A DNA stretch of 64,000 bases from Auraticoccus monumenti. Its GTDB lineage: Bacteria; Actinomycetota; Actinomycetes; Propionibacteriales; Propionibacteriaceae. Position numbers and translations under genes: made by a program. The stretch covers positions 930,001 to 994,000 of the forward strand of contig NZ_LT629688.1 of the NCBI RefSeq assembly GCF_900101785.1, read 5' to 3'. Positions 21,799 through 35,010 of the stretch are shown here, piece by piece (the stretch's first letter is position 1; each line of letters begins with the position of its first letter). The notes under the pieces were generated by a model that did not search any database, had not been told where the DNA came from, and saw only the letters and a program-made list of their open reading frames with translations.

Positions 21799-21951
21799 CG
21801 GTGCTCGCGGGCCCGAACCTGGCCCCGCCCGAGGTCGCCCGCACCAACGTGTCCATACGAGCACACTGGCCGCCCTACGGCGCCGTCGCGCCGCTATGAA
21901 CAGCTTCCGGTGGACGTCCCCGGCGGGACCGTGCCGGGACGCCCGTCGATT

Positions 21952-22008
21952 CGTGCGTCCCACAGCCCGACAGGCTCCGCAGGGACCGGATGGGCTCTCG
22001 GACGCACG
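21952..22008. repeat. Hairpin in copy 1 of the 298-base-period repeat
   Basis: The outer arms CGTGCGTCC (21952-21960) and GGACGCACG (22000-22008) match perfectly. Inner arms AGCCC (21964-21968) and GGGCT (21992-21996) also match. It fits a bidirectional terminator or a structured repeat. Confidence 0.7.
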
Positions 22009-22249
22009 TTCTGACGACGCATCCGGGGGCCACCCCTCTGCCGCGGACTCAGACGCCGACGGGCGTGCAGGACGGCGTCGAAGGTCGGGCTCGACGAGGT
22101 GGCGGGCGGAGCGCGTCCGTTCCGTCACCTCCTGAGCGCGCGAACCTGCTCATGGGAGCACCCTGGGCTCTCCACGGCGCTCGAGTGCCGCCATGGACAG
22201 GTTCCTGCGGCCGTCGAACCACGCGACAGGCACGGGACGGCCGTCGGTG

Positions 22250-22306
22250 CGTGCGTCCCGCAGCCCGCCAGGCTCCCTGGGGACCTGATGGGCTCTCCGG
22301 CGCACG
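22250..22306. repeat. Hairpin in copy 2 of the 298-base-period repeat
   Basis: It is the counterpart of the hairpin 298 bases upstream. The left arm CGTGCGTCC (22250-22258) is unchanged and the right arm is GGCGCACG (22299-22306), so one pair becomes a G-T wobble and the stem survives. Inner arms AGCCC (22262-22266) and GGGCT (22290-22294) are unchanged. Its nearest end is about 37 bases beyond the minus-strand kinase stop, a terminator position. Confidence 0.7.
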
Positions 22307-22343
22307 TTCCGACGACGGCGGCCGGAGCCACCTGGACAGGGAC

Positions 22344-23576
22344 TCAGGTGCTGACGGCGCGCAGGACCGTGTCGAGGGTGTCGTCCTCGCCGACGTTGCC
22401 CGGCACCACCACCAGCACCACCGGACGTCCGGCAGGAGTGCTCAGGTCCCAGACGGAGACCCCCGGCAGCACCTGGCCGCGGACCCTGGCCCGGGCGGCA
22501 CCGAGCCCGGCCCGGGCCACCTCCGCGCCGGTGATCCCACCTTTGGAGACCACCACCTCGACGTCGTCGCGGAGAGCGGCCACCGTGCCCACCAGCACCC
22601 GCATCACCGACTCGCCGTGGGCCAGGGTGTGGTGCTCGGGGCGCCGCACCCGTTCGCTGGCCAGCGCCGCGAAGCCGTCGGCCAGCGCGGGCGCCACCTC
22701 GCTCACCAGCCGGTCGACCTCCCCGGGTCCGTCGGCCAGCGCCGCGTCGGTGTCGATGACGCACGGGGCCCGTCGTCCGGCCGCGGCGACCGCGAGCTGG
22801 CGGGTGGCCGCGGAGGTGTGGGAGCCGCAGACCAGCAGCGTGCGCCCGGACGGCGTCACCGGGGTGGGGAGCAGGCCGGCGCTGGTGACCCCGGCCACTG
22901 CGGCGGCGATCGGCGCCCCACCGCGGACCACGAGCTCGCGCTCGGTCCAGGCCGTCCGGACCGCGACCGCCAGCCGCTCCACGTCGGCGTCGTCGTGGAC
23001 GTCGGGCAGCAGCACCTGGCCGTCACCCGCACCGACCAGGGCGGCCACCAGCGCCGCGGGGTCGCGGACCACCTCGATGGGCAGCAGCACCGGTTCGCGG
23101 TCGGAGTGCTCGCGCACGTAGTCGGGCAGGTGGCCGGAGCGGTACCCGAAGACGGGGTCGGCGGCGAACTCGGTCTCGTGCGCCGGCAGGGTCCGCCCAC
23201 CCACCCGGACCAGGTGGGTGCCGTCGACCGTGGTGCGGCCGCCGCCGGGGAAGGCCGGCACGAACAGCAGCGGGGCCCGGTCGTCGACGGCGGCGGCCTC
23301 GGCGAACACGTGCCCGCGCAGGGTGGAGTCCCCGCGCAGCACCAGGTGCACCCGCTCACCGAGGCGTCGCCCGGCCTCCGCGGCCATGTCCCGGGTCCGG
23401 TGCACCAGGGCGACGGCCTCCGCCTCGGCCACGGCGCGGGTGTTGGTCAGCAGGTAGACCGCCGGCGCGGAGCCCAGGGCGTCGGTCAGGGTGTCGGTGT
23501 CCCAGTCCAGCAGCACCTCCACGCCGGTGGCGGACTGGCTGCCGGTGGGGTCGTCGTCGAGGACCAGGACGAGCAT
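22344..23576 (-). CDS. Four-carbon acid sugar kinase family protein (DUF1537)
   Basis: A 410-residue ATP-dependent kinase. The substrate-binding N-terminal half starts LVLVLDDDPTGSQS. The nucleotide-binding half carries TLLVCGSHTSAATRQLA, EVVVSKGGITGAEVA and VVVPGNVGEDDTL. Known members phosphorylate threonate, erythronate, denoised C4 ketoacids or 3-oxo-isoapionate, so here it probably makes a 4-phosphate of a C4-C5 sugar acid. It is the last gene of a four-gene operon, 12 bases after the SDR stop. The 3' end lies inside the downstream copy of the 298-base repeat. Confidence 0.85.
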   Translation of the reverse strand: MLVLVLDDDPTGSQSATGVEVLLDWDTDTLTDALGSAPAVYLLTNTRAVAEAEAVALVHRTRDMAAEAGRRLGERVHLVLRGDSTLRGHVFAEAAAVDDRAPLLFVPAFPGGGRTTVDGTHLVRVGGRTLPAHETEFAADPVFGYRSGHLPDYVREHSDREPVLLPIEVVRDPAALVAALVGAGDGQVLLPDVHDDADVERLAVAVRTAWTERELVVRGGAPIAAAVAGVTSAGLLPTPVTPSGRTLLVCGSHTSAATRQLAVAAAGRRAPCVIDTDAALADGPGEVDRLVSEVAPALADGFAALASERVRRPEHHTLAHGESVMRVLVGTVAALRDDVEVVVSKGGITGAEVARAGLGAARARVRGQVLPGVSVWDLSTPAGRPVVLVVVPGNVGEDDTLDTVLRAVST

Positions 23577-23588
23577 CGGGACCCGCTC

Positions 23589-24356
23589 TCAGTGCATGTA
23601 GAGGCCGCCGTCGACGTTCAGGGTCTGCCCCGTCACGAAGCCGGCGTCCTCGCTGATGAGGTAGTGGACGGCCGCGGCGATGTCGCGCGGGGTGCCGATG
23701 CGTGGCAGCACGCCGTCGGCGGCCATCGCGGTCTTGCGCTCCTCGCTCAGGGCGCCGCCCATGATGTCGGTGTCCACCGGGCCGGGGGAGACGACGTTGG
23801 CGGTCACCCCGTGCGGGCCCAGCTCGCGGGCGATCGAGCGCATCAGCCCAACCACGCCCGCCTTGGACGCCGAGTAGGGCGTGCGGGAGTAGGTGCCGCC
23901 GCCGCGCTGCGCCGAGACCGAGGAGATGCCGACGATGCGGCCCACCCCGGAGACGACCAGCGACTCCGCCACCCGCTGGGTGATCCAGTGGGTGCCGGTC
24001 AGGTTGATCGAGAGCACCCGGTGCCACTCGTCGGCGTCCACCTCGAGGTAGGGGACCGGTGAGGAGACGCCGGCGAAGGCGACCACGGCCACCAGCTGCG
24101 GCAGCTGCGCCTCCAGCTGGTCCACCGCCGCACGGGCTGCGGCCCGGTCGGCCACGTCCGCCCCGACCCCGACCGCCCGGACGCCGTGCTGCTCGCTGAC
24201 CTCGGCCGCCGTCTCCGCCGCGGCCGTCGGGTCGACGTCGACGACCCCGATGTGCCAGCCGTGCTCGGCCAGCAGGTGGGCGGTGGCCCGGCCGATCCCG
24301 CGCGGGGAGGCGGCGCCGGTGAGCACCGCCGTGCGCTCGGCCGGGAAGGAGCTCAC
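23589..24356 (-). CDS. Short-chain dehydrogenase/reductase (SDR)
   Basis: A 255-residue classical SDR. The cofactor motif is TGAASPRGIGRA, and the acidic D of GVVDVD after strand 2 points to NAD. The NNAG position is degenerate (VAFAGVSSP). The catalytic set includes a serine in GISSVSAQRG and YSASK (Y-x-x-x-K). It ends in the usual GQTLNVDGGLYMH. In this operon it may oxidise a sugar, polyol or sugar acid. Its GTG start overlaps the upstream stop by four bases. Confidence 0.88.
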   Translation of the reverse strand: MSSFPAERTAVLTGAASPRGIGRATAHLLAEHGWHIGVVDVDPTAAAETAAEVSEQHGVRAVGVGADVADRAAARAAVDQLEAQLPQLVAVVAFAGVSSPVPYLEVDADEWHRVLSINLTGTHWITQRVAESLVVSGVGRIVGISSVSAQRGGGTYSRTPYSASKAGVVGLMRSIARELGPHGVTANVVSPGPVDTDIMGGALSEERKTAMAADGVLPRIGTPRDIAAAVHYLISEDAGFVTGQTLNVDGGLYMH

Positions 24357-25360
24357 TGCTCGGTCTCGCCCGGCTCGGCGGGGTGGATCGGGGCGGGGCC
24401 GAGCTCGGCCAGCAGCTCCTGCATCTTGACGTAGGCCTTGTTGCGGTAGGCCACCAGCTCCGGCACCCGCTCGGCGGGGACGTCGAGGAAGCCGCCGCCG
24501 GACTTGGTGCCCAGCTTGCCCTGGGCCACCAGCTCGGCCAGCGCGGTCGGGGTGGCGAAGCGCTCGGGCCAGCGGCCCTGCAGGGACTGGAAGCAGAACT
24601 CGTAGACGTCCAGCCCGGCCATGTCGGCGATGGCGAAGGGGCCGAAGAACGGCAGCCGGAAGCCGAAGGTGGTGCGCACGATGGTGTCGACGTCCTCGGC
24701 GGTGGCCACCCCCTCCTCCACGAGCTGGCTGGCCTCGGAGAAGAGCGCGTACTGCAGCCGGTTGAGCACGAACCCGTCGGTGTCGTTGACCCGGGCGGTC
24801 TGCTTGCCGGTGGCGCGGACGATCTCCTCCACGCCCGGCAGCAGCGACTCGTCGGTGCCGGGGTGGGGGATGATCTCGACGCCGGGGATGAACGGCGCGG
24901 GGTTGGAGTAGTGCACCCCGAGGAAACGCTCGGGACGGTGCACCGCCTCGGCCAGCCGCGCGATCAGGATGGTGGAGGTGTTGGAGCCGATCACCGCGTC
25001 GTCGGCGGCGGCGGCGGAGATGCGGCGCAGCGTGTCGTGCTTGACCGCGATCTTCTCCGGCACGGCCTCCTCGACGAACGAGGCGCCGTCGACGGCCTCC
25101 TCCAGCGAGGCGGCGGCGCTGACCCGGGCTCGCATCACGTCGGCCGCACCCTCGGGGAACAGGCCGTCGGCGGTGTACTGGGTGGCCTCGGCGACGATGC
25201 GTTCCAGGTTGCCGGCCGCCACCTCGGCGCTGACGTCGCTGATCCGGACGTCGGCGCCGGCCAGGGCGAGCAGCTGGGCGATGCCGCCGCCCATGTAGCC
25301 GCTGCCGACCACGGCGATCTGGCGTCCCTGCAGGGGTGCGGGGGAGGAGGTGGTGGACAT
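24353..25360 (-). CDS. 3-hydroxyacyl-CoA dehydrogenase-family NAD oxidoreductase
   Basis: A 335-residue protein. The N-terminal Rossmann domain starts IAVVGSGYMGGGIAQLLALAGADV and continues with FVEEAVPEKIAVKHDTLRR and GSNTSTILI. The catalytic histidine region is LGVHYSNPAPFIPGVEI and the C-terminal dimer domain has DGFVLNRLQYALFSEA and GGGFLDV. Some family members oxidise sugar acids or other free hydroxy acids (L-gulonate or carnitine dehydrogenases), and the company of a sugar-acid kinase favours that here over beta-oxidation; this is inference. It is the second gene of the operon. Confidence 0.85.
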   Translation of the reverse strand: MSTTSSPAPLQGRQIAVVGSGYMGGGIAQLLALAGADVRISDVSAEVAAGNLERIVAEATQYTADGLFPEGAADVMRARVSAAASLEEAVDGASFVEEAVPEKIAVKHDTLRRISAAAADDAVIGSNTSTILIARLAEAVHRPERFLGVHYSNPAPFIPGVEIIPHPGTDESLLPGVEEIVRATGKQTARVNDTDGFVLNRLQYALFSEASQLVEEGVATAEDVDTIVRTTFGFRLPFFGPFAIADMAGLDVYEFCFQSLQGRWPERFATPTALAELVAQGKLGTKSGGGFLDVPAERVPELVAYRNKAYVKMQELLAELGPAPIHPAEPGETEQ

Positions 25361-25413: not shown

Positions 25414-26346
25414 TCAGCGCGGCAGCAGCGAGCGGAGGTAGCGCTCGTTGGTGGCGCAGACCCCGAGGCTGTCCCCGCCGTACTGCTCGAGCAGGAACGG
25501 GCCGCGGAAGCCGAGGTCGACGGCGTCGCGGACGACCTCGCGGTAGTTGATCAGCCCGAGCTCCATGCTGGTGGGGGTGGAGCTGGCCCAGGAGCCGTCG
25601 CCGGCCTCGTCGCGGGCGTAGTTCTTGACGTGCCAGTAGTTGGCGTAGGGCAGCGTCTTGGCGTGCATCTCGCGCCAGTCCTCGATGGGGCGGTGCAGCC
25701 GGACCAGGTTGCCGATGTCGGGGTTGAGGCCGACGTTGTCCAGCCCGATCTCCTGCACCAGCTGGACGGCGCTGTCGGCGGTGCCGAGGTAGGTGTCCTC
25801 GTACATCTCCAGCGCCATCGGCAGCCCGACGCTGGCCGCGTGCTCACCCAGCTCACGGAGCCGGCGGACGCAGAGCGCGCGGGTCTCGGCGTCGTCGGGG
25901 TCCTTCCAGCCCGGGGCCGTCCAGAACCACAGCGCCTTCTTCTGGGCCTCGCTGAACGGGTGGTGCAGACCGGTGGAGAAGACGCTCATGCCGAGTGCGG
26001 CGGCGCCGTCGATGCTGCGGTGGGCGTACTCGAGGTTGCGCTCGCCGTGCTCGGGGTGGATGACGCTCTGGCGCTGCACGTGGACGGAGATGATCTCGAC
26101 CCCGTGGGACTTCGCCACGGCGAGCAGCTCCTCGCGCCGGGACGGCTCCAGGTCGGCCGGGCGGATGTGGTTGTCGGCGATCTCGATCGCGGTGAAACCG
26201 AGCTGCTCCACCTCGGTGAAGACCTCGTCCCAGCGCTCGACCGGGGCGTCGTGCAGGGGGTCGGCGCCGGGGCGGGCGAAGCCGTGCATGCAGACGGCGA
26301 TCGGCCAGTTCTCGGCGGTGAGCTCGGCGGGTGCGGCGGGGGTCGA
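25414..26346 (-). CDS. Sugar phosphate isomerase/epimerase-like TIM-barrel protein
   Basis: A 310-residue protein of the xylose-isomerase-like TIM-barrel (AP endonuclease 2) family from the ATG at 26346. A longer frame begins at 26391, inside the operator, so is less likely. Metal-site stretches are FTAIEIADNHI, ALEMYEDTYL, VGLNPDIGN (D), YWHVKNYAR and PFLLEQYGGDS. Relatives are isomerases (hydroxypyruvate, tagaturonate-type) or the 3-oxo-isoapionate decarboxylase type, and I cannot choose among them. It leads the four-gene operon, 45 bases downstream of operator 1. Confidence 0.8.
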   Translation of the reverse strand, partial: STPAAPAELTAENWPIAVCMHGFARPGADPLHDAPVERWDEVFTEVEQLGFTAIEIADNHIRPADLEPSRREELLAVAKSHGVEIISVHVQRQSVIHPEHGERNLEYAHRSIDGAAALGMSVFSTGLHHPFSEAQKKALWFWTAPGWKDPDDAETRALCVRRLRELGEHAASVGLPMALEMYEDTYLGTADSAVQLVQEIGLDNVGLNPDIGNLVRLHRPIEDWREMHAKTLPYANYWHVKNYARDEAGDGSWASSTPTSMELGLINYREVVRDAVDLGFRGPFLLEQYGGDSLGVCATNERYLRSLLPR

Positions 26347-26390
26347 CATGACCACGTCCTCGGGATCGGTACGGCTGACTAGATCCAACA

Positions 26391-26400
26391 TCCTATAGGA
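26391..26400. promoter_or_regulatory. Operator 1: TCCTATAGGA palindrome before the isomerase operon
   Basis: The perfect 10-base palindrome TCCTATAGGA is part of TCCTATAGGAAGT, which recurs identically at 30787 and 30882. On the minus strand a consensus -35 TTGACA lies at 26411-26416, and TAGGAT inside the palindrome could be the -10, although the 15-base spacer is short. A bound GntR regulator would then block the operon promoter. Confidence 0.75.
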
Positions 26401-26508
26401 AGTGGGGAGGTGTCAAGGCGTGGGTAGGAGACGGTGGTCGTCGCGCACCGGCTGTTCACCATGACTGGCCAGGATCGGAGCAGGCAGGCGACAGGAGGAG
26501 TGGGGCAG

Positions 26509-27405
26509 ATGACGCAGACGGACTTCCGGGAGTACCTCGACTCGCTGCGGGGCGACGGGTTCAGCGTCCGCCACGACGAGCACGGGTCCGACCCCGACCT
26601 GATCGACCCGGGTGGCCGGGCGGTGGAGAGCTGGCGCGAGCAGTACCCCTACGAGGAGCGGATGGGCCGCGACGAGTACGAGGCGGAGAAGTACGTGCTG
26701 CAGATCGAGCTGCTGAAGTTCCAGTACTGGACCCAGGACACCGGCGGCCGCCACGTCGTCCTCTTCGAGGGTCGCGACGCCGCCGGCAAGGGCGGCACCA
26801 TCAAGCGGTTCACCGAGCACCTGAACCCGCGCGCCTCCCGGGTGGTGGCCCTGACCAAGCCCACCGAGACCGAGCAGGGGCAGTGGTACTTCCAGCGCTA
26901 CGTCAGCCGGCTCCCCACGGCCGGGGAGATCGTGCTCTTCGACCGCTCCTGGTACAACCGCGCCGGGGTGGAGCGGGTGATGGGCTTCGCCAGCGACGCG
27001 GAGTACGAGCTGTTCATGACCCAGGCGCCGCAGTTCGAGCAGATGCTGGTCGACGCGGGCATCTCGGTGACGAAGCTGTGGTTCTCGGTGACCCAGGCCG
27101 AGCAGCGGACCCGGTTCGCGATCCGCCAGCTGGACCCGGTGCGGCAGTGGAAGCTCTCCCCGATGGACATCGAGTCCCTGGACCGGTGGGAGGACTACAC
27201 CGCGGCCAAGGAGCAGATGTTCCTCCGCACCGACACCGACCACGCCCCGTGGACCACGATCAAGAGCAACGACAAGAAGCGCGCCCGGATCCAGGCCATG
27301 CGGTTCTTCCTGTCCCAGTTCGACTACGACGGCAAGGACGCCGACGTGGTCCAGACGCCCGACGAGAAGGTCGTGCAGCGTGGGCTGAGCGCGGTGGGTG
27401 ACTGA
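26509..27405 (+). CDS. ppk2: Polyphosphate kinase 2 (PPK2) family protein
   Basis: A 298-residue protein from the ATG at 26509, preceded by an AGGAGGAG ribosome site. A start at 26461 is possible but lacks such a site. The Walker A motif is GRDAAGKGGT (88-97) in VVLFEGRDAAGKGGTIKRF. The following VALTKPTETE, GEIVLFDRSWYNRAGVERVMGF (Walker B and lid) and KLWFSVTQAEQ belong to class-I-like PPK2 enzymes, which use polyphosphate to phosphorylate nucleoside diphosphates or the reverse. It sits alone on the plus strand between the two sugar operons, with no sign of sharing the operator. Confidence 0.93.
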   Translation: MTQTDFREYLDSLRGDGFSVRHDEHGSDPDLIDPGGRAVESWREQYPYEERMGRDEYEAEKYVLQIELLKFQYWTQDTGGRHVVLFEGRDAAGKGGTIKRFTEHLNPRASRVVALTKPTETEQGQWYFQRYVSRLPTAGEIVLFDRSWYNRAGVERVMGFASDAEYELFMTQAPQFEQMLVDAGISVTKLWFSVTQAEQRTRFAIRQLDPVRQWKLSPMDIESLDRWEDYTAAKEQMFLRTDTDHAPWTTIKSNDKKRARIQAMRFFLSQFDYDGKDADVVQTPDEKVVQRGLSAVGD

Positions 27406-27435
27406 GGGTTCGCCTCCACCGACGGCAGGGAGGGG

Positions 27436-27490
27436 CAGGACCGACGTCCTGGGGGCGTACGTCGAGCTCGAGGCGGGCCGGGTTCGGCCC
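27436..27490. terminator. Two short hairpins between convergent genes
   Basis: The first hairpin has arms CAGGAC (27436-27441) and GTCCTG (27446-27451). The second has GGGCCG (27475-27480) and CGGCCC (27485-27490) with a GGTT loop. They lie between the ends of ppk2 and the GntR gene and could serve both as terminators. Confidence 0.45.
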
Positions 27491-27513
27491 TCCGAGGTGC
27501 ATCCTGAGCAGGC

Positions 27514-28245
27514 TCAGAGCTCCCGGGCGATGCGCAGCGAGCGCTCGCGGACGTTCTCGATGTGACGCCGCATGGCCTGCTCCGGGCTGAGGACCTCACC
27601 GCGGGCGGTCGTGCGGGAGGAGAAGGCGTCCACCACAGCGGCGTGCTCGGCGACGGCCTCGTGCACGTCGGTGACGCCGCGCAGCGCGCTCTGCCGCATC
27701 CGGTGCAGCTGGGCCCCGAGGGAGACCGACATGCTGAGCAGGTACCGGTTGCCGCAGTGCTCGAGGACGACGGCGTGGAAGTCGGAGTCGCTGGCGAAGT
27801 ACTCGGTGGTCAGGGTCAGGTCCACCCGGCCGGCGGCCAGCGCCTCGGCCACCCGCTCACCGGCGCGGACGTGGCGCTGCTGGGCCTCGCGGAGCTGCTC
27901 GAGCATGACACCGCTGGCGGGGGTGGCCAGCCGGGCCGCGGTGGTCTCCAGCATCAGCCGGGCCTCGAACACCTCGGCCAGCTCGCCCTCGGACAGCGGG
28001 GGCGCCACCCGGTAGCCCTTGAGCGCCTCGCGGGTCACCAGCCCGGTGCGCTCCAGGTGGACCAGGGCCTCCCGGACCGGGGTGGGGGAGACGGCCAGCT
28101 CCCGGGCGATGGTGTCGATCGCCAGCCGGGCGCCGGGTTCGAGCTCGCCGCTGAGCAGCAGCTCCAGGATCCGCTCGTAGACGTGGTCGCGGAGCCCGCG
28201 CCGTGCGATCCGGCGGTCGGGTGCGGGGGTCGGGGGACGTGGCAT
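27514..28245 (-). CDS. GntR-family transcriptional regulator (FadR/FCD type)
   Basis: A 243-residue regulator from the ATG at 28245, coupled to the upstream isomerase gene as TGATG. The winged helix-turn-helix fills about residues 15-80 (RDHVYERILELLLSGELEPGARLAIDTIARELAVSPTPVREALVHLERTGLV, abbreviated by its ends RDHVY and RTGLV). The FCD ligand domain follows, with conserved R and H residues such as ARLMLE, DSDFHAVVLEHCGNR and AVAEHAAVVDAF. As the last gene of the kinase-isomerase operon it most likely binds the TCCTATAGGA operators and is released by a pathway intermediate. Binding is inferred from context. Confidence 0.88.
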   Translation of the reverse strand: MPRPPTPAPDRRIARRGLRDHVYERILELLLSGELEPGARLAIDTIARELAVSPTPVREALVHLERTGLVTREALKGYRVAPPLSEGELAEVFEARLMLETTAARLATPASGVMLEQLREAQQRHVRAGERVAEALAAGRVDLTLTTEYFASDSDFHAVVLEHCGNRYLLSMSVSLGAQLHRMRQSALRGVTDVHEAVAEHAAVVDAFSSRTTARGEVLSPEQAMRRHIENVRERSLRIAREL

Positions 28246-29021
28246 CAACGCGGCTCCCGGTCGGCGACGTCGAGGACCTCGTCCAGGATGCGGGCGACGG
28301 CGGCCGGGTCGTGGGCGAAACGGCCGAGGAACATGCCGTCCACGCTGTCGGCGATGGTGGGCCACAGCCCCGGTCCGGCGCTGCCGCCGTAGATGACGCG
28401 ACCGGGCAGCATCGGGTCGGGGGCGACGGAACGGCGCAGTGCCGCGGCCACGGAGCGGATGTGGTCCGCCCCGGCCGGCTCGGGGGCGCCGATGGCCCAG
28501 ACGGGTTCGTAGGCCACCACCACCGGACCCTCCAGCCCCTGCTCGCGCGCCGGGGCCAGCGCGGAGTCGATCTGGCCCAGCACCTCCGCGACCGCCTCCG
28601 CGGGGCGGCCCCGCTGCGGCTCGCCGACGCAGAGCACCGGGGTGAGCCCGTTGCGGAGCGCGGCGGTGGTCTTGGCGGCGACCACCTCCTCGGTCTCGCC
28701 GAACATCGCCCGGCGCTCGGCGTGGCCGACCTCGACCAGGGTGCAGCCCAGCTCGGCCAGCACGCGTCCGCTCACCTCACCGGTGAAGGCGCCCTCGTCC
28801 TCGGTGCCCAGGTCCTGCGCGCCCACCCGCAGCCCGGAAGGCAACCCGAGCTCCAGCGCGGCCGGGATCGAGGGGAACTGCGGCATCACGAAGAGCTCGG
28901 CCAGCCCGCCGGTGATCGCGGGGTGGGTGCGGGCGGTCCCGGCCACCGCCTCCACCCACGTGCGGGTGCGCGCGTGGGAGAAGTAGGTCTTGAGGCTGGA
29001 ACCCACCAGCACCGGGGCCAT
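28245..29021 (-). CDS. Triosephosphate-isomerase-family protein, probable tetrulose-phosphate isomerase
   Basis: A 258-residue TIM-barrel isomerase. The catalytic H (GHAERR), E (VAYEPVWAIG) and phosphate loop (YGGSAG) of triosephosphate isomerase are present. However the N of the usual N-x-K motif is S here (GSSLKTYF), so it differs from housekeeping enzymes. Its neighbour is a DhaK-DhaL kinase, and in mycobacteria such a pair makes and isomerises L-erythrulose 1-phosphate (LerK/LerI). I infer a similar role and am not certain. Its ATG overlaps the kinase stop as TGATG, and its own stop overlaps the GntR start. Confidence 0.78.
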   Translation of the reverse strand: MAPVLVGSSLKTYFSHARTRTWVEAVAGTARTHPAITGGLAELFVMPQFPSIPAALELGLPSGLRVGAQDLGTEDEGAFTGEVSGRVLAELGCTLVEVGHAERRAMFGETEEVVAAKTTAALRNGLTPVLCVGEPQRGRPAEAVAEVLGQIDSALAPAREQGLEGPVVVAYEPVWAIGAPEPAGADHIRSVAAALRRSVAPDPMLPGRVIYGGSAGPGLWPTIADSVDGMFLGRFAHDPAAVARILDEVLDVADREPR

Positions 29022-30748
29022 CAGGCGCCCCAGAGCCGTCCGCCGACCGTGCCGACGACCAGCGCGAAGGAGACCGCGCCGGGGTCGGCGGTGCCGCGGG
29101 ACTTCTCCCCGTGCGAGCGGGCGCGTCCCAGCTTCGCGGTCAGCTCCTTGGTCGACTCGGCCCCCTGGTCGGCGGCCTGCACGGCGGCGTCCCAGGCCTG
29201 CGGCAACGGGTCACCGGCGCCGACCCGCTCGGTGAGGGTGCGGACGAAGGGGACGATGGCGTCGACCATGGTCTTGTCCCCGACCGCGGCGCCGCCGACA
29301 CGCTCGACGGCCTCCTCGGCCTGGCGGACGCCCTCGGCCACCGCCGCCGCCTCGACCGCGTCCTCGTCGCCGATCGAGCGGGCGAAGGCGTCCAGCATGG
29401 CGGCCCAGATCGCCCCGGACGTCCCCCCGGCCCGGTCACCCCAGGCGTCGCCCGCGCGCTGCACGGTGGTCCCGGCACCGGCCCCCGCCTCCAGGGCCTC
29501 GTGGGCGGCGTCCCGGGCGGCGCGGCTGCCGCGCTGCATGCCGATGCCGTGGTCGCCGTCGCCGGCCACCCGGTCCAGCCGACCCAGCTCGTCGGCGTGC
29601 TCGTCCAGGACTGCGGCGACGGCGTCCAGCGCCTCGGCCACCCGGGTGGCGGCCCGGCGGGAGACATCGCTGGCCTCGCCGATCTCGGTGGCGGCGGCCA
29701 CCGCGGCCTCGATCTCCTCGGCGGCGACCTGCTGCTGGCCCGACACCCCGCCGCGGCGGAAGGCGGCGGTGTCGCAGGGGGCGGTCCAGAGCCGCTCCAG
29801 CTCCTCGTCCAGCCACAGCAGGGTGAGCGAGCAGCCGGCCATGTCGAAGCTGGTGCAGAACTCGCCGACCTCGGGGTCGACCACCTCGATGCCGGCCTCC
29901 TCGAGGAGGCGGTGCACGGTGGCGTAGACCACGAACAGCTCCTCGTACTTCACGCTGCCCAGCCCGTTGAGGATCGGCACCACCCGGGCGCCGCGGACGT
30001 CGACGCCGTCGGGCACCTCTCCCAGCAGGGTGGAGACGAAGCGCTCGGCCAGCCCGGCGGCGGTGGGGACCTCGACCTCCTCGATCCCCGGCTCGCCGTG
30101 GATCCCCAGCCCGACCGCCATCCGCCCCTCCGGGACGGTGAACAGCGGCTCGTCCGCGCCGGGGAGGGTGCAGCCGCCGAAGGCCACCCCCAGGGATCGC
30201 ATCCGGTCGTTGGAGAAGGAGGCGACCCGCTCGACCTCAGCAAGGTCGTAGCCGGCCTGGCAGGCGGCGCCGGCGATCTTGAAGACGACCAGGTCACCGG
30301 CGATCCCGCGACGCTTCTCGCGCTCGTCAGGGCCCGCGCTGGAGACGTCGTCGGTGGCCAGCACGGTGCGGCACTCGATGCCCTCGGCGCGCAGCCGCTC
30401 CTGGGCGGCGTCGAAGTTGAGGACGTCGCCGGCGTAGTTGCCGTAGCTGAGCAGGACGCCGCGGCCCTGGTCGGCGGCGCGGGCCACCGAGTGCACCTGC
30501 TGGGTGGAGGGCGAGGCGAACAGGTTGCCCATCGCCGCACCGTGGGCCAGGCCGGGGCCGACCAGACCGGCGAAGGCCGGGTAGTGCCCGGAGCCACCGC
30601 CGATCACCAGGGAGACGGTGGGCTCGCTGCCGCGGGTGCTGCGGACGACGCCGCCGGGGACGTGCCGCACCCAGCGGGACGCGGCGGCGGCGAAGCCGAC
30701 CACCATCTCGTCGGCGAACTGGTCGGGGTCGTTGAACAGCCACGCCAT
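29021..30748 (-). CDS. DhaK-DhaL fusion kinase (dihydroxyacetone/erythrulose kinase type)
   Basis: A 575-residue ATP-dependent ketose kinase from the ATG at 30748, with a GAGGAG ribosome site. The frame upstream is low-complexity and crosses operator 2. The DhaK half (about 1-335) has GGGSGHYPAFAGLVG and the histidine that holds the ketose in GLGIHGEPG. The DhaL half has DRVAGDGDHGIGMQRG (metal and ATP site), GGTSGAIWAAM and GDKTMVDAI. ATP-type Dha kinases differ from the PEP-dependent ones in being fused as here. A substrate such as L-erythrulose or dihydroxyacetone is expected; with the paralogous isomerase next door, erythrulose is favoured. Confidence 0.88.
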   Translation of the reverse strand: MAWLFNDPDQFADEMVVGFAAAASRWVRHVPGGVVRSTRGSEPTVSLVIGGGSGHYPAFAGLVGPGLAHGAAMGNLFASPSTQQVHSVARAADQGRGVLLSYGNYAGDVLNFDAAQERLRAEGIECRTVLATDDVSSAGPDEREKRRGIAGDLVVFKIAGAACQAGYDLAEVERVASFSNDRMRSLGVAFGGCTLPGADEPLFTVPEGRMAVGLGIHGEPGIEEVEVPTAAGLAERFVSTLLGEVPDGVDVRGARVVPILNGLGSVKYEELFVVYATVHRLLEEAGIEVVDPEVGEFCTSFDMAGCSLTLLWLDEELERLWTAPCDTAAFRRGGVSGQQQVAAEEIEAAVAAATEIGEASDVSRRAATRVAEALDAVAAVLDEHADELGRLDRVAGDGDHGIGMQRGSRAARDAAHEALEAGAGAGTTVQRAGDAWGDRAGGTSGAIWAAMLDAFARSIGDEDAVEAAAVAEGVRQAEEAVERVGGAAVGDKTMVDAIVPFVRTLTERVGAGDPLPQAWDAAVQAADQGAESTKELTAKLGRARSHGEKSRGTADPGAVSFALVVGTVGGRLWGA

Positions 30749-30786
30749 CGTGGGGCTCCTCGTGTCGGGGACCGGGTCAGCGCTGA

Positions 30787-30796
30787 TCCTATAGGA
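30787..30796. promoter_or_regulatory. Operator 2: TCCTATAGGA palindrome before the kinase operon
   Basis: The same 13-mer TCCTATAGGAAGT as the other two sites, 39 bases before the DhaK-DhaL start. Read on the minus strand the right flank of operator 1 (ACTTCCTATAGGAT) is repeated here. It is presumed to bind the GntR regulator encoded by this operon. Confidence 0.75.
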
Positions 30797-30881
30797 AGTT
30801 GGATGTCGCGCCAGGGGTGAGCGGGGGTGCGCACCCGCCTGGCTTCGTGGAACAGGCCTGCGCACCTCAGGCGGAGCCGCT

Positions 30882-30891
30882 TCCTATAGGA
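30882..30891. promoter_or_regulatory. Operator 3: TCCTATAGGA palindrome, upstream site
   Basis: It lies 86 bases beyond operator 2 and extends to the longer palindrome CTTCCTATAGGAAG. On the minus strand TTGACA occurs at 30912-30917, 20 bases outside it. Two sites 95 bases apart, nearly nine helix turns, would allow looping; it may also act on the plus-strand tad promoter. Confidence 0.7.
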
Positions 30892-31014
30892 AGTGCTACC
30901 GGACAAGAAGTTGTCAACATATTGCGCAGAATCCCTGGTGGAGTGGCCCGGTGGTCTGGTGAGGTCGGTCGCGAGACGGGCCGACCGGTCCGTCCAGACC
31001 AGTCGAGGGGGGCC

Positions 31015-31722
31015 GTGAGCACCACCGCCAGGGGCGCCCGGGGGAACGCACCAGCCGGCGCCGCACCGCAGCCGGCGCGTGCGCCGGGGCCGCCGCGACC
31101 CCCGGACCTGTCGGCGCTGGACCGTGCGCCACAGCTGCGGGCCCGCCGCTCGCCCCGCTGGATCGCCGCCGGGGTGCTCGCCATCTGCCTGGGCGCCATC
31201 GGGGCGGTGCTGCTCTGGGACGGTGCCGTCACCTCCCAGCAGGTGCTGCGCGTCAACGCCGCGGTCGCCCGGGGTGAGGTGGTCGAGGCCGGTGACCTCG
31301 GGCCCGTCACCATCGGCTCCCTGCCCGGGGTGTCGGTGGTGCCGGCCGAGGAGCTCACCGGGCTGGTGGGTCAGCACGCCCTGGTCGACCTGCCCGCCGC
31401 CAGCCTGGTCCCGGCCGGCGGCGTCGGCGCGCCGGTCGTCGCGGAGGGGACGGCCCGGATGGGATTGGCGCTGCCCGCCGGTCGCCTGCCCTCCGGGACG
31501 CTGGTGCCCGGGGAGTCGCTGCTGCTGATCCCGGTGCCCGCCCCCGACGACGACAGCCGCGAGGCGCGTCAGCCGGTGGTCGCCGCGACGCTGGTCAGCG
31601 CCCCGGCGGTGGGTCCGGACGGCGTCGTGACGCTCGTCGACGTCACGGTGGCGGTCGAGGACGCGGAGGCGGTGGCCCGGCTGGCGGCCACCGACCGCCT
31701 GGTCGTGGCCCGGGTGGGCTGA
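31015..31722 (+). CDS. SAF-domain protein, CpaB/RcpC-like pilus assembly component
   Basis: A 235-residue protein from the GTG at 31015. A proline/alanine-rich cytoplasmic N-terminus is followed by one membrane helix (WIAAGVLAICLGAIGAVLLW, about 47-66), then a SAF domain (VLRVNAAVARGEVVEAGDLGPV) and a beta-rich C-terminus. SAF proteins of this shape (CpaB/RcpC) belong to Flp/Tad pilus machines. It is the first gene of a tad-like operon; four bases separate it from the next start. The match is by architecture and context rather than by a diagnostic motif. Confidence 0.7.
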   Translation: MSTTARGARGNAPAGAAPQPARAPGPPRPPDLSALDRAPQLRARRSPRWIAAGVLAICLGAIGAVLLWDGAVTSQQVLRVNAAVARGEVVEAGDLGPVTIGSLPGVSVVPAEELTGLVGQHALVDLPAASLVPAGGVGAPVVAEGTARMGLALPAGRLPSGTLVPGESLLLIPVPAPDDDSREARQPVVAATLVSAPAVGPDGVVTLVDVTVAVEDAEAVARLAATDRLVVARVG

Positions 31723-31725
31723 GAG

Positions 31726-32511
31726 ATGGCGCTGCTGGTGCTGGCCGCTGCCGCCGGGTCGCCGGGAGTGACCGCGACCAGCGTCGGGCTGTCCCTGCTG
31801 TGGCCGCGGGACGTCCTGCTCGTGGACGGCGACCGCGACCCGTCCCAGTCCGTCCTCGCCGGGTTCCTGCAGGGAGCCGACGGGCGCGGCCGCGGGCTGG
31901 TGGAGCTGGCCCGGGCGCACCGCGAGGGACGTCCGCTGGAGCGGGAGGTGCTGCACCACACCCTGGTCCTGGCCGGGGACGGCACCCGCCAGCGGCTCTT
32001 CCTGCCCGGCTTCACCCGTCCCGGGACGGCCCTCCTCTTCTCCCGTGTCTGGGGGGACCTGGCGCGCGCCCTGCAGACCCTCGACACCGCCGGCTTCGAC
32101 GTCGTGGTGGACGCGGGCCGGATCGGGGCGGCCGGGCTGCCCAGGGAGCTGGTCGGTGCCGCGGACGCGGTGGCCGTGCTGACGCGGTCCACGTTGCGCT
32201 CGCTGGCCGCGACGCGGCTCTACCTGCCCGAGCTCCAGGAGACGGTGGCGCTCAGCCAGGGACAGCTGGGTCTGGTGCTGGTGGGTGAGGGACGCCCTTA
32301 CTCCGCGCGCGAGATCGCCGGTCAGTTCGGGCTCCCGGTCTGGTTGGTGGTGGCCGAGGACGCCGCGGCGGCCGCCGTCTTCTCCGACGGCGCACCCCAC
32401 CCCCGCAAGCTCGGGCAGTCCGCCTACGTCCGTTCGCTGCGGCAGGGGGCCGAGACGCTGTTCGGGCTGGCCACCCGGTCCCGTCGGCTGGTGAGCGGGG
32501 TGCCCCGGTGA
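31726..32511 (+). CDS. TadZ/CpaE-like ParA-family protein with a degenerate P-loop
   Basis: A 261-residue protein. The start LLVLAAAAGSPGVTATSVGLSLLW corresponds to the deviant Walker A of ParA/MinD proteins, but the lysines of KGGxGKT are gone (GSPGVTAT). A DGDRDPSQSVL stretch follows as in ParA family switch I, then FDVVVDAGRIG as the Walker B-like region. TadZ proteins in the tad locus place the secretion ATPase at a pole and many have altered P-loops. ATP binding is doubtful here. It overlaps tadA by four bases (GTGA). Confidence 0.7.
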   Translation: MALLVLAAAAGSPGVTATSVGLSLLWPRDVLLVDGDRDPSQSVLAGFLQGADGRGRGLVELARAHREGRPLEREVLHHTLVLAGDGTRQRLFLPGFTRPGTALLFSRVWGDLARALQTLDTAGFDVVVDAGRIGAAGLPRELVGAADAVAVLTRSTLRSLAATRLYLPELQETVALSQGQLGLVLVGEGRPYSAREIAGQFGLPVWLVVAEDAAAAAVFSDGAPHPRKLGQSAYVRSLRQGAETLFGLATRSRRLVSGVPR

Positions 32512-33614
32512 CCCACTCCCCGCTCCAGTCCGTGCCGCTGTTCCAGGCTCCTCCCGGGCCACCGGGGGACGACGTCGCCCCGCCGCCCCGGACCACCTTC
32601 ACCGCCACCGAGATCGCCGCCAGCCCCCTCGGTGAGCAAGCGGCCGGATCGGTGGACTGGGGTCTGGTGGTGGTGCTCCGACGCCAGGCCTCGGCGGAGA
32701 TCTCCGAGCACTCGCGGCAGTTCCAGGAGGAGCACGGCCGACCGATGCCCGACGTCGACCGGCGGCTGATGGGTCGGGCGACGATCCGTTCCATCGTGCG
32801 CCGGCACGCCGAGCAGCTCAGCGCCCTGGGCCAGGAGCTGTGGCCGATCCAGGTCGAGCGGCGCTACGCGGGGGCGGTGGAGGACGCGGTCTTCGGCTAC
32901 GGGCGGCTGCAGCCCCTGTTCGACCTCCCCACCGCGGAGAACATCGAGATCCACGGCCACGACTCGGTCATGGTGCAGCACGGGGACGGCCGCCGGGTGC
33001 CGCACCCGCCGGTGGCCGACAGCGACGCCGAGCTGGTCGAGGCGATCCGCTTCCTGGGCGAGATGGCCAGCCCCAGCCGACCCTTCGACGACGCCCACCC
33101 CACCATGACGCTGGCCCTGGGGCACCGCTTCCGGCTGCACGCCATCGGCTTCGGGCTGTCGTCGCGGCCCTCGGTCACGATCCGCCAGCACCTGCTCACC
33201 GACGTCACCCTGGCCGAGCTGGCCGACGGCGGTCTGCTGCCCGACGACGTGGCGGCCTTCCTGCACGCCGCGGTGCTGGCCCGCAAGTCGATCGTGATCT
33301 CCGGTGACCAGGGTGCCGGGAAGACCACCCTGCTCCGGGCCCTGGTGGCGGCCATCCCGGTGCAGGAGCGCTTCGGCACCATCGAGACCGACTACGAGCT
33401 CCTCACCCACCTGCTCCCCGGGCGGGGGAACGTGCTGGCCCTGCAGGCCCGCACCGGGCTGGGCGAGGTGGTCGACGGACGCCGGCTGGGGGAGTTCACC
33501 GTGGCGGACCTGCTGCCGGAGGCGCTGCGGCAGAACCTGTCCCGGCTGGTCATCGGCGAGGTCCGCGGCGGCGAGGCGGCGGCCATGTTCGAGGCGATGC
33601 AGGCCGGGCCGGGA
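32508..33614 (+). pseudogene. tadA: TadA/CpaF-type pilus ATPase, interrupted by the prophage
   Basis: The N-terminal about 369 residues of a type II/IV secretion ATPase. The N-terminal domain precedes Walker A GDQGAGKT (266-273). Then come an Asp/Glu box (FGTIETDYELL) and the Walker B-type RLVIGEVRGGEAAAMFEAMQAGPG, where the reading frame should continue into a SLSTxHA motif. Instead it enters phage DNA and runs on to 33770 as about 52 unrelated residues. The hexamer's C-terminal part is therefore missing and the ATPase is presumably dead. The other part of the gene should lie at attR beyond the window. Confidence 0.8.
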
Positions 33615-33634
33615 CTCGACTACCCTCGAACGTG
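33597..33634. other. attL: left prophage junction inside tadA
   Basis: tadA-like coding sequence stops matching after CAGGCCGGGCCGGGA (MQAGPG). Phage DNA with the integrase promoter and start begins within about 20 bases. The exact crossover core cannot be fixed without attB or attR; it probably lies at 33601-33615. Confidence 0.65.
33621..33626 (+). promoter_or_regulatory. -10 box of a leaderless integrase promoter
   Basis: TACCCT fits the actinobacterial TANNNT -10 element and ends seven bases before the integrase GTG. No ribosome site fits in between, so the transcript is probably leaderless. The surrounding TCGACTACCCTCG recurs with one extra base before the ORF at 35067. Confidence 0.55.
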
Positions 33635-35010
33635 TGAGAGCGGCGATCTACACCCGGCAGTCACAGGACCGCACCGGCACTGGGCTGGGAGTCGCCCGCC
33701 AGGAGGCCCTGTGCCGGCAGCGCGCCGAACAGCTCGACTGGACTATCGTCGCCGTCTACTCCGACAATGACGTCTCCGCCTCGACCGGGAAGCCGCGGCC
33801 TCGCTACCAGCAGCTGCTCGCTGACCTCGAGGGCGGCCTGGTCGACGCGGTGGTCGTGTACAACCTCGACCGGTTGCACCGCCGCCCGGTCGAGCTCGAG
33901 CACTTCATCACCTTGGCTGACCAGCACCGGACTGCGCTGGCCTCCGTCTCAGGGGAGGTGGACCTGTCTACCGACGGGGGCCGGCTGCACGCACGGATCC
34001 TCGGCGCGGTCGCGCGCGCGGAGATCGAGCGGAAGTCCGCCCGGCAGACCGCCGCGTACCGGCAGCGCGCGCAGCAGGGGCGTCTCCACCGGCTCCAGCC
34101 CGCGTTCGGGTACCGCGGACTCCAGCTGGAGCCCGTCGAGGCGCAGGCTGTGCGGGACGCCGTCGGCTGGGTGCACGACGGGGTGTCGCTCTACGAGATC
34201 GCCCGGAGGTGGACGGCCAGAGGGTTGACCACCGCGCTCGGGAACCCGTGGGAGGGGTCGACGGTGGCCACCTACCTGCGGAACCCGCGCGTCGCAGGCA
34301 TCCGGACCTACCGCCGGGAGCCGGTCGTGGTCGACGGCGAATACGTGCGGGGTGAGTGGGAGCCCCTCCTTGACGTTGACACCTGGCAGGCGATGACGGC
34401 CGCGCTGGCGAGCCGCGGGCACCGCTGGCCGGAGCGGCAGCAGCAGCTCCTGCTGTCGGGGGTGGCGCGGTGCGGCACCTGCGGGAACCGGATCAACTCT
34501 GGGGGCAAGCGGCAGGGGAACTCGGTCGGGCACCGCTACCGCTGCGTGAAGAACGGGTCGCACATCAACCGCACCGCAGCGCCCGTCGACGAGTTCGTGG
34601 TGGACGCCCTGGTCGCCCGGCTGGGGCAGCCGGACACGGTCGACGTGCTGAGCGCGGCGCCGACCGTCGACGTCGGCGGGCTCAGGGTCGAGGCCACACA
34701 GCTCCACCAGCGGATGGAAGGACTGTCGGAGGCGTACGCCGACGGCGCCATCAGCGTGGGCCAGCTCCGTGCCGGGACTGAGCGGCTGCGTGGCCAGCTG
34801 GCGGAGGTGGAGCGGCGACTGCAGTCCGGACAGCGGTCGGCGGCGACGGCCCGGCTGGTCGCTAGCTCGGACGTCCGGGCCGCTTGGGACGCTCTCGAGA
34901 TCTCCGTGCAGCGGACGGTGCTGCGCGAGCTCGCCGGCATCACCATGCACGGGCCCGGGGCCGGGATCAGGTACGTCACGGCTGAGCAGGTCGTCATCGA
35001 CTGGCTCTGA
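33634..35010 (+). CDS. int: Large serine recombinase (phage integrase)
   Basis: A 458-residue site-specific recombinase. The resolvase domain starts RAAIYTRQSQ with catalytic S10 and continues with YSDNDVSASTG, VVVYNLDRLHRRP and ARAEIERKSARQTAAYRQRA. The recombinase domain has FGYRGLQLEP and LRNPRVAGIRTYR. The zinc-ribbon region has CGTCGNRINSGGK and RYRCVKNG with only three cysteines visible, and a leucine-rich coiled-coil segment follows. Large serine integrases need no host factor to integrate, and a recombination directionality factor to excise. The GTG start is only about 20 bases from the junction. Location next to attL is typical. Confidence 0.95.
   Translation: MRAAIYTRQSQDRTGTGLGVARQEALCRQRAEQLDWTIVAVYSDNDVSASTGKPRPRYQQLLADLEGGLVDAVVVYNLDRLHRRPVELEHFITLADQHRTALASVSGEVDLSTDGGRLHARILGAVARAEIERKSARQTAAYRQRAQQGRLHRLQPAFGYRGLQLEPVEAQAVRDAVGWVHDGVSLYEIARRWTARGLTTALGNPWEGSTVATYLRNPRVAGIRTYRREPVVVDGEYVRGEWEPLLDVDTWQAMTAALASRGHRWPERQQQLLLSGVARCGTCGNRINSGGKRQGNSVGHRYRCVKNGSHINRTAAPVDEFVVDALVARLGQPDTVDVLSAAPTVDVGGLRVEATQLHQRMEGLSEAYADGAISVGQLRAGTERLRGQLAEVERRLQSGQRSAATARLVASSDVRAAWDALEISVQRTVLRELAGITMHGPGAGIRYVTAEQVVIDWL

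Follow-up and report, generated by a model that had tools for sequence, protein, structure and literature searches.

A predicted sugar regulon of Auraticoccus monumenti: three identical palindromes, a GntR/FCD regulator and a non-canonical operator

Can three identical palindromes that lie in front of two sugar operons of the actinobacterium Auraticoccus monumenti be assigned to the GntR/FCD regulator encoded at the same locus, and how would a protein of this family read a sequence that lacks the family's usual core? The DNA concerned, referred to below as 'the window', is a stretch of 64,000 nucleotides (contig NZ_LT629688.1, positions 930,001 to 994,000). We consider it probable, at roughly 0.86, that the three sites are operators of a repressor encoded at 27514–28245, that both operons are co-repressed through them, and that the system is autoregulatory. 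As a repressor–operator pair the system is ordinary; what is new is the non-canonical operator, together with recognition-helix residues that match it.

Three palindromes before two operons

Searched in full, the window contains TCCTATAGGAAGT on the forward strand at 26391–26403, 30787–30799 and 30882–30894. It holds no fourth copy, 100 shuffles yield none, and no further window site lies within one mismatch of the inner 10-mer, TCCTATAGGA. The complete genome (one contig of 4,461,688 bp) has exactly three copies of this core, all at these sites, and no copy of its reversed control. With up to two mismatches to TTCCTATAGGAA allowed, a single extra place appears in the whole genome—a poor match, TTCCTACCGGAA, at 2015257—while the reversed control gives seven forward matches. 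Markov models of order 1–3, trained on the window, predict 0.008–0.36 genomic copies of the 10-mer and 0.0001–0.006 of the 13-mer. Genome uniqueness, shuffles and Markov expectation thus lead us to reject chance recurrence of the 13-mer. A sequence-only reading made earlier had named these three positions and judged chance unlikely, and the counts bear it out; it had also named many unrelated copies across the genome as something that would speak against the regulon, and the scan finds the core at the three sites only. The predicted operators are:

26390..26401, minus strand: operator 1, TTCCTATAGGAT on the minus strand; centre 46.5 bp before the start codon of a xylose-isomerase-like (XylI-like) gene; in the same place in relatives
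30786..30797, minus strand: operator 2, TTCCTATAGGAT on the minus strand; centre 43.5 bp before the start codon of a kinase gene (DAK); conserved in relatives
30881..30892, minus strand: operator 3, TTCCTATAGGAA, a perfect palindrome; centre 95 bp upstream of the centre of operator 2

Both operons run on the minus strand and both have sites upstream, as the sequence-only reading stated, with the clarification that site 1 precedes operon 1 whereas sites 2 and 3 precede the same one, operon 2, site 3 being centred 138.5 bp before its first start codon. The operons are made up as follows.

25414..26349, minus strand: operon 1 gene 1, XylI-like TIM-barrel protein (PF01261; PDB match 5tnv)
24353..25360, minus strand: operon 1 gene 2, 3-hydroxyacyl-CoA-dehydrogenase-like (HCDH) enzyme
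23589..24356, minus strand: operon 1 gene 3, short-chain dehydrogenase (SDR)
22344..23576, minus strand: operon 1 gene 4, DUF1537-type acid-sugar kinase (PF07005 and PF17042)
29021..30748, minus strand: operon 2 gene 1, fused Dak1–Dak2 kinase (DAK), candidate L-erythrulose kinase
28245..29021, minus strand: operon 2 gene 2, divergent triosephosphate-isomerase paralog (TIM-like), candidate L-erythrulose-1-phosphate isomerase
27514..28245, minus strand: operon 2 gene 3, GntR/FCD regulator (PF00392 and PF07729); its start overlaps the isomerase stop

Since neighbours in operon 2 overlap by one base each, start and stop codons merging as TGATG, the regulator, as the last gene, is very probably co-transcribed with the enzymes. 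The autoregulation proposed from sequence gains support from this arrangement, because the regulator sits behind sites 2 and 3 in what would be its own target operon.

Motif and regulator in other genomes

A regulator scan of named genomes returned 71 loci. The closest orthologs (65–78% identical) occupy 12 of these, L004–L015, in Desertihabitans, Microbacterium (10 loci) and Pseudonocardia (L014). All 12 have a site before DAK, beginning 41–57 bp upstream of its start and altered by one change, to TTCCAATAGGAT, in L006 and L007. The XylI-like gene, too, is preceded by a site in each of the 11 close loci that reach it, in the form TCCTGTAGGA in L006 and L007. In Desertihabitans aurantiacus the XylI–HCDH–SDR–DUF1537 operon lies on another contig (L123), and a site precedes the matched start of its first gene by 57 bp. 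Within 300 nt upstream of DAK, none of the 12 has more than the one site, so site 3 is an extra here.

Behind the XylI-like gene, HCDH and SDR genes follow in the 10 Microbacterium loci, and a DUF1537 gene was found in five of them (L005–L008 and L013); all three are absent from that position in Pseudonocardia. In L005 and L008, an RpiB gene lies between DAK and the TIM-like gene, and DUF1537 is preceded by a 3-hydroxyisobutyrate-dehydrogenase-like gene; L005 has a transporter gene besides. In the window, the polyphosphate kinase 2 gene ppk2 (26509–27405, plus strand) stands between the regulator and operon 1; the Microbacterium and Pseudonocardia loci have no such gene in between, the operator and then the XylI-like gene coming straight after the regulator. 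That site 1 might serve the divergent ppk2 is not supported by this order, which holds throughout L005–L015.

Does the motif accompany the regulator more widely? The sample of the window's family comprised 197 genomes, 23 of which have a regulator match at E<=1e-40. The strict motif, WTCCTATAGGAW, occurs in 12 of the 197, every one of them among the 23 with the regulator (12/23, against 0/174 without), and its reversed control occurs in one of 197. Of 149 genomes of Microbacterium, the genus of L005, 15 have the regulator, 16 the motif and 11 both; the motif without the regulator (5/134) is no more frequent than the reversed control (11/149), and the four regulator genomes that lack the strict motif have a one-mismatch form, TCCTGTAGGA, before the XylI-like gene. 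Among 396 genomes sampled across the Actinomycetota, the regulator is present in only three and the motif in all three, a result that adds little; the three include the window genome and one with the coordinates of a Microbacterium genome already counted. Fisher's test gives p = 2.7e-13 for the window family, 3.8e-10 for Microbacterium and 8e-4 for the phylum sample. Together with the conservation at the close loci, this co-occurrence supports the earlier proposal that the gene at 27514 regulates both operons, binding and repression themselves being predicted.

Several observations weigh against the assignment. The genomes are related, so that the p-values overstate independence. Eleven of the 23 regulator-bearing family genomes, with homologs of 43–47% identity, lack the strict motif, and in eight of the 12 that have it the homologs are no closer (43–49%) than in those that do not. 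The distance from strict site to regulator amounts to hundreds of kilobases in one family genome (G066) and to about 21 kb in another (G012). In the phylum sample the motif occurs in 35 of the 393 genomes without the regulator, the reversed control being found in about 70 of 396 (counted from rows). A strict regulator–site rule meets its clearest exception in the thirteenth close locus, Glycomyces L016: the regulator there is 59% identical and accompanied by DAK, RpiB, TIM-like and XylI-like genes, yet the locus has no site within one mismatch, and the 300 nt before DAK have none even within two.

Such cases bear on whether the sites might belong to another regulator, encoded elsewhere, the GntR/FCD gene being a bystander in the operon. 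Motif and regulator mostly share one locus, so linkage alone could produce part of their co-occurrence, and the Glycomyces locus has the regulator without the sites. What makes this explanation quite improbable is that the motif tracks the regulator clade beyond these operons. Four copies of the site occur elsewhere in the Glycomyces L016 genome, one of them beside a second FCD regulator (L119); a Devosia regulator (L122) likewise has the motif beside it, both proteins being only about 36% identical to ours; and among Mesorhizobium homologs (30–36% identical, with His for the recognition Arg) ATCGTATAGGAT lies close before the gene in 12 of 14 loci (L019 and 11 more), often extended to ATATAGGAT. 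Nor does any of the ten flanking ORFs scanned in the window contain another transcription-factor domain. One encodes a GAF–ANTAR protein, which we take to be of the RNA-binding type.

The sites at L119 and L122 read ATCCTATAGGAT, and their neighbours include aldo/keto reductase and iron alcohol dehydrogenase genes; each probably marks a further regulon within this operator clade. Two family genomes have strict sites at a great distance from the regulator (L125 at 4184 and L128 at 3867), in front of an SDR gene, 70% identical to that of the window, and of a PdxA-family gene, and these could possibly be additional regulon members. Microbacterium sp. CBA3102 has a third exact palindrome (L121, around 4084), distant from the locus and with no gene assigned, which may be there by chance.

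Residues and bases in operator recognition

The regulator combines an N-terminal GntR winged helix–turn–helix (PF00392, 58.2 bits; cut-off 27) with a C-terminal FCD domain (PF07729, 59 bits; cut-off 24.3). FCD domains are typed by helix number—six in VanR, seven in FadR—and the structure model (mean pLDDT 89.9) places helices beyond the wing at residues 86–106, 112–137, 143–163, 167–176, 178–189, 194–208 and 221–242. The fold ranking is led by PmiR, followed by a Brucella GntR protein, Atu1419 (third), Lar and AlkR, with TM-scores of 0.51–0.68 by query length. PmiR of Pseudomonas aeruginosa (7xp0, 7xp1) is the best PDB match in both sequence and fold; it differs in being about 32% identical and in having a recognition helix, SRGPLREA, that contains Arg.

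How FadR-subfamily regulators read DNA is described in those parts of Suvorova et al. 2015 (PMC4494728) that deal with operators and contacts. The operators share a core, TKGT/ACMA, in which GT and AC lie 2–3 nt apart; Arg45 of the FadR recognition helix reads G; and for the rare Asp at the position of FadR Arg35, a contact with C was proposed from correlation data. The window's operator, TCCTATAGGA, has neither GT nor AC: its half-sites are TCCT/AGGA. The regulator, aligned by eye, has Pro54 at the position of FadR Arg45 and Asp44 at that of Arg35, and so presents Asp44 and Pro54 at its DNA-reading positions and lacks the recognition-helix Arg. Core and arginine are usual in the family without being conditions of membership. 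The sequence-only reading had stated that FCD regulators bind palindromes of this kind; this stands for length and symmetry and fails for sequence, the usual GT...AC core being absent. The motifs treated in that paper's text are palindromic as well, and have weaker extra boxes 7–12 nt from the centre; ours have extra conserved bases at 8–12 nt, a result computed over 25 of the 27 XylI-type promoters compared below (all except L011 and L147).

Is the change in the protein associated with the change in the DNA? Among 108 homologs, 67 have Pro, Gln or His at position 54, 37 have Arg and four have another residue. These 108 were taken from 126 regulator hits; the 18 skipped are nearly all repeated regions or the window's own regulator, with the exception that L138 and L148 represent one Microbacterium regulator with a nearby site, so that one positive was dropped, while the seemingly identical L083 and L084 were both kept. 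Sites were sought from 350 nt upstream to 400 nt downstream of the regulator gene, and targets farther away (e.g. DAK in L004) were scored as misses. Within these bounds, the motif with up to one mismatch accompanies 42 of the 67 Pro/Gln/His54 regulators, none of the 37 with Arg54 and none of the four others; the reversed control is zero throughout. With up to two mismatches, the numbers become 44, 3 and 2, and those of the control 4, 1 and 2. Arg54 regulators have a palindrome of their own: 22 of the 37, many from Rhodobacterales, lie near a sequence within two mismatches of WTTGTATACAAW (e.g. ATTGTCAACAAA), which is found with none of the 67 and, in the reversed control, with none of the 37. 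Clustered at 70% identity, 11 of 22 clusters with Asp44 and Pro/Gln/His54 have the site, compared with 0 of 13 Arg54 clusters. Residue 44 by itself was considered as a predictor and is a weak one, E44/P54 regulators having the site in one of three.

The homologs come from few clades and were picked by similarity to one protein, and we regard the association between residue 54 and the operator as a strong lead, short of proof. We lean towards the view that a clade of FCD regulators in Actinomycetota and Hyphomicrobiales uses a recoded operator, Asp44 and Pro/Gln/His54 replacing two G-reading arginines as the half-site goes from TKGT to TCCT. On balance we would write this operator as (A/T)TCCTATAGGA(A/T), as opposed to the family's GT...AC palindrome (of the type TTGTATACAA). 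The pairing of Asp44 with C at the matching base would agree with the Asp–C contact put forward in 2015. If true, the motif and the two residues would let this clade's regulons be read from genomes, and the clade would offer an unusually clean natural test of how DNA specificity changes in a large family, two helix residues and two operator bases having apparently changed together.

A precedent backed by experiment is Atu1419, a VanR-group repressor of Agrobacterium fabrum. As reported in the sections of its published account drawn on here (PMC7797058), the operators of Atu1419 are three copies of one 10-bp palindrome, of which two cover -10 boxes; the protein is autorepressing and, assembled as a tetramer, forms a DNA loop between sites at a distance of 190 bp. 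Ours, too, is an FCD protein with three short palindromes, two over likely -10 boxes, two of the three within one regulatory region, and—here by prediction—repression of its own gene and of pathway genes; a metal in the effector domain would likewise be shared, here by analogy. The operators differ: in ATGTATACAT, that of Atu1419, an essential G3 is read by Arg45, whereas TCCTATAGGA has C there, and Pro/Gln/His stands for the Arg. Tetramer and looping were demonstrated for Atu1419; for our regulator, a distance of 95 bp from site 2 to site 3 would be compatible with them. Pathway and effector are different. Among the matches listed from the GntR-motif and sugar-pathway literature, taken as titles and abstract openings, no report of this motif or regulon appears; CCTATAGG occurs in PMC3187754 only within a deletion oligonucleotide derived from devA flanks.

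Promoters, mechanism and pathway

The right half of the operator, TAGGAT, is positioned as expected for a -10 box, and operon 1 has a -35 candidate to match:

26390..26395, minus strand: candidate -10 box TAGGAT, the right half of operator 1
26411..26416, minus strand: candidate -35 box TTGACA of operon 1, a perfect hexamer 15 nt from TAGGAT (matches in relatives peak at 16 nt)

Relatives were compared as 27 promoters of the XylI type and 14 of the DAK type, the latter including window sites 2 and 3; near-duplicates such as L009 and L012 were omitted. The XylI-type set matches TTGACA best at a 16-nt spacer (mean 2.85 of 6; 0.96–1.56 at nine other spacers), and the DAK-type set, in which site 3 is counted, does so at 17 nt (2.64) and has a smaller maximum at 12 nt (2.14). 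For 23 XylI-type promoters (the 27 minus L011, L015, L141 and L147), the best match at 15–18 nt averages 3.30, a value that none of 2000 shuffles reaches (mean after shuffling 2.50). TTGACA ranks fourth of its 180 anagrams, the three above it all containing TTGA. These peaks speak for the -10 box that the sequence-only reading had placed inside operator 1. To the points against our assignment must be added that the -35 signal is uneven, the best match lying at 16 nt in 10 of the 23 promoters and reaching at most two of six bases in six of them, and that a strict sigma-70 promoter scan (16–18 nt spacer) of 26300–31100 found no promoter. The case for one therefore rests on the TTGACA of operon 1, with its 15-nt spacer, and on the relatives. 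At site 3, which reads TAGGAA and has no well-placed TTGAC-like hexamer, no convincing -35/-10 pair could be seen by eye.

Could the palindrome be a conserved promoter or RNA element and nothing more? TAGGAT can indeed be read as a -10 box, with a TTGAC-like sequence tending to occur 16–17 nt upstream. But palindromy is not required of a promoter, and a promoter should turn up again in the genome, as this sequence does not, and would not be confined to regulator-bearing genomes; the bases 8–12 nt from the centre are conserved too. We find this explanation barely credible. With the likely -10 box lying inside the operator, the simplest mechanism, and the likeliest, is that the bound repressor keeps RNA polymerase from that box. 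A dimer of the FCD-type GntR repressor (27514–28245) would bind TTCCTATAGGAW across the TAGGAT of each promoter and block RNA polymerase, turning operons 1 and 2 off together, until a pathway metabolite enters a metal-containing FCD pocket and the repressor is released. The likeliest inducer would be L-erythrulose or its phosphate, or else an oxo-acid sugar from further up the pathway. The regulator, lying within its own target operon, would close an autoregulatory loop.

The regulator might instead bind the sites and activate, or act mainly by looping. One FCD protein, CitO, is an activator (PMC4746285); site 3, 138.5 bp before the DAK start, is about nine helical turns from site 2; and Atu1419, by its published account, loops between palindromes. 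Here as in relatives, though, sites 1 and 2 coincide with the likely -10 position, a place where a bound activator would be unusual, and none of the 12 close relatives has anything corresponding to site 3 before DAK, so we hold activation or looping to be unlikely as the main mode. Under -10 occlusion, which we prefer, site 3 might still have an auxiliary or looping role. The pocket itself is predicted from Asp153, His157, His201 and His228, which fall at metal-site positions and are invariant in 31 aligned homologs; the assignment is by analogy with the histidines described for TM0439 and LldR (PMC4746285).

What pathway would be controlled? The TIM-like gene appears to be a specialised paralog, since the genome has a separate canonical triosephosphate isomerase at 3859092 (306.6 bits, against 176.3 for the gene in operon 2) and three RpiB-family genes elsewhere. 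Its PDB scores are 123.5 bits for the L-erythrulose-1-phosphate isomerase 11ef and 125.6–159 bits for six entries that bear the name triosephosphate isomerase. Hits of the HCDH-like protein include general 3-hydroxyacyl-CoA dehydrogenases among others; for the DUF1537 protein, a PDB search at 1e-5 gives no match. The combination of DAK with a TIM-like isomerase, joined in some relatives by RpiB, is reminiscent of L-erythrulose phosphate metabolism, and that of XylI-like, dehydrogenase and DUF1537 genes is reminiscent of acid-sugar pathways. The kinds of enzyme shared with the L-erythrulose/D-apiose and tetronate acid-sugar pathways are DAK, TIM-like isomerase, RpiB (in some relatives), XylI-like and DUF1537. 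The window's DUF1537 kinase falls below the NCBIfam equivalog cut-offs for the characterised families, D-threonate kinase and 3-oxo-tetronate kinase (75.4 bits against 450 and 36.5 against 350). We put at about one half the chance that the pathway yields L-erythrulose or its phosphate; the substrate is perhaps a sugar acid that feeds L-erythrulose phosphate. If the assignment is true, an uncharacterised sugar or acid-sugar pathway of actinobacteria comes with a ready regulon, its operators, likely promoter and regulator located.

Two features of the surrounding DNA deserve mention. Just past the end of operon 1 lies a 111-nt direct repeat (21924–22034 and 22222–22332), whose copies are 79% identical and 298 nt apart. 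On the other side, within 32508–35010 (plus strand), a serine recombinase gene with Resolvase and Recombinase domains begins where a CpaF/TadA-type ATPase ORF stops short. The match of the ATPase to T2SSE ends at position 236 of the 370-position profile, and no piece corresponding to its remainder is listed near it in the genome; the arrangement resembles an element inserted into a tad pilus gene.

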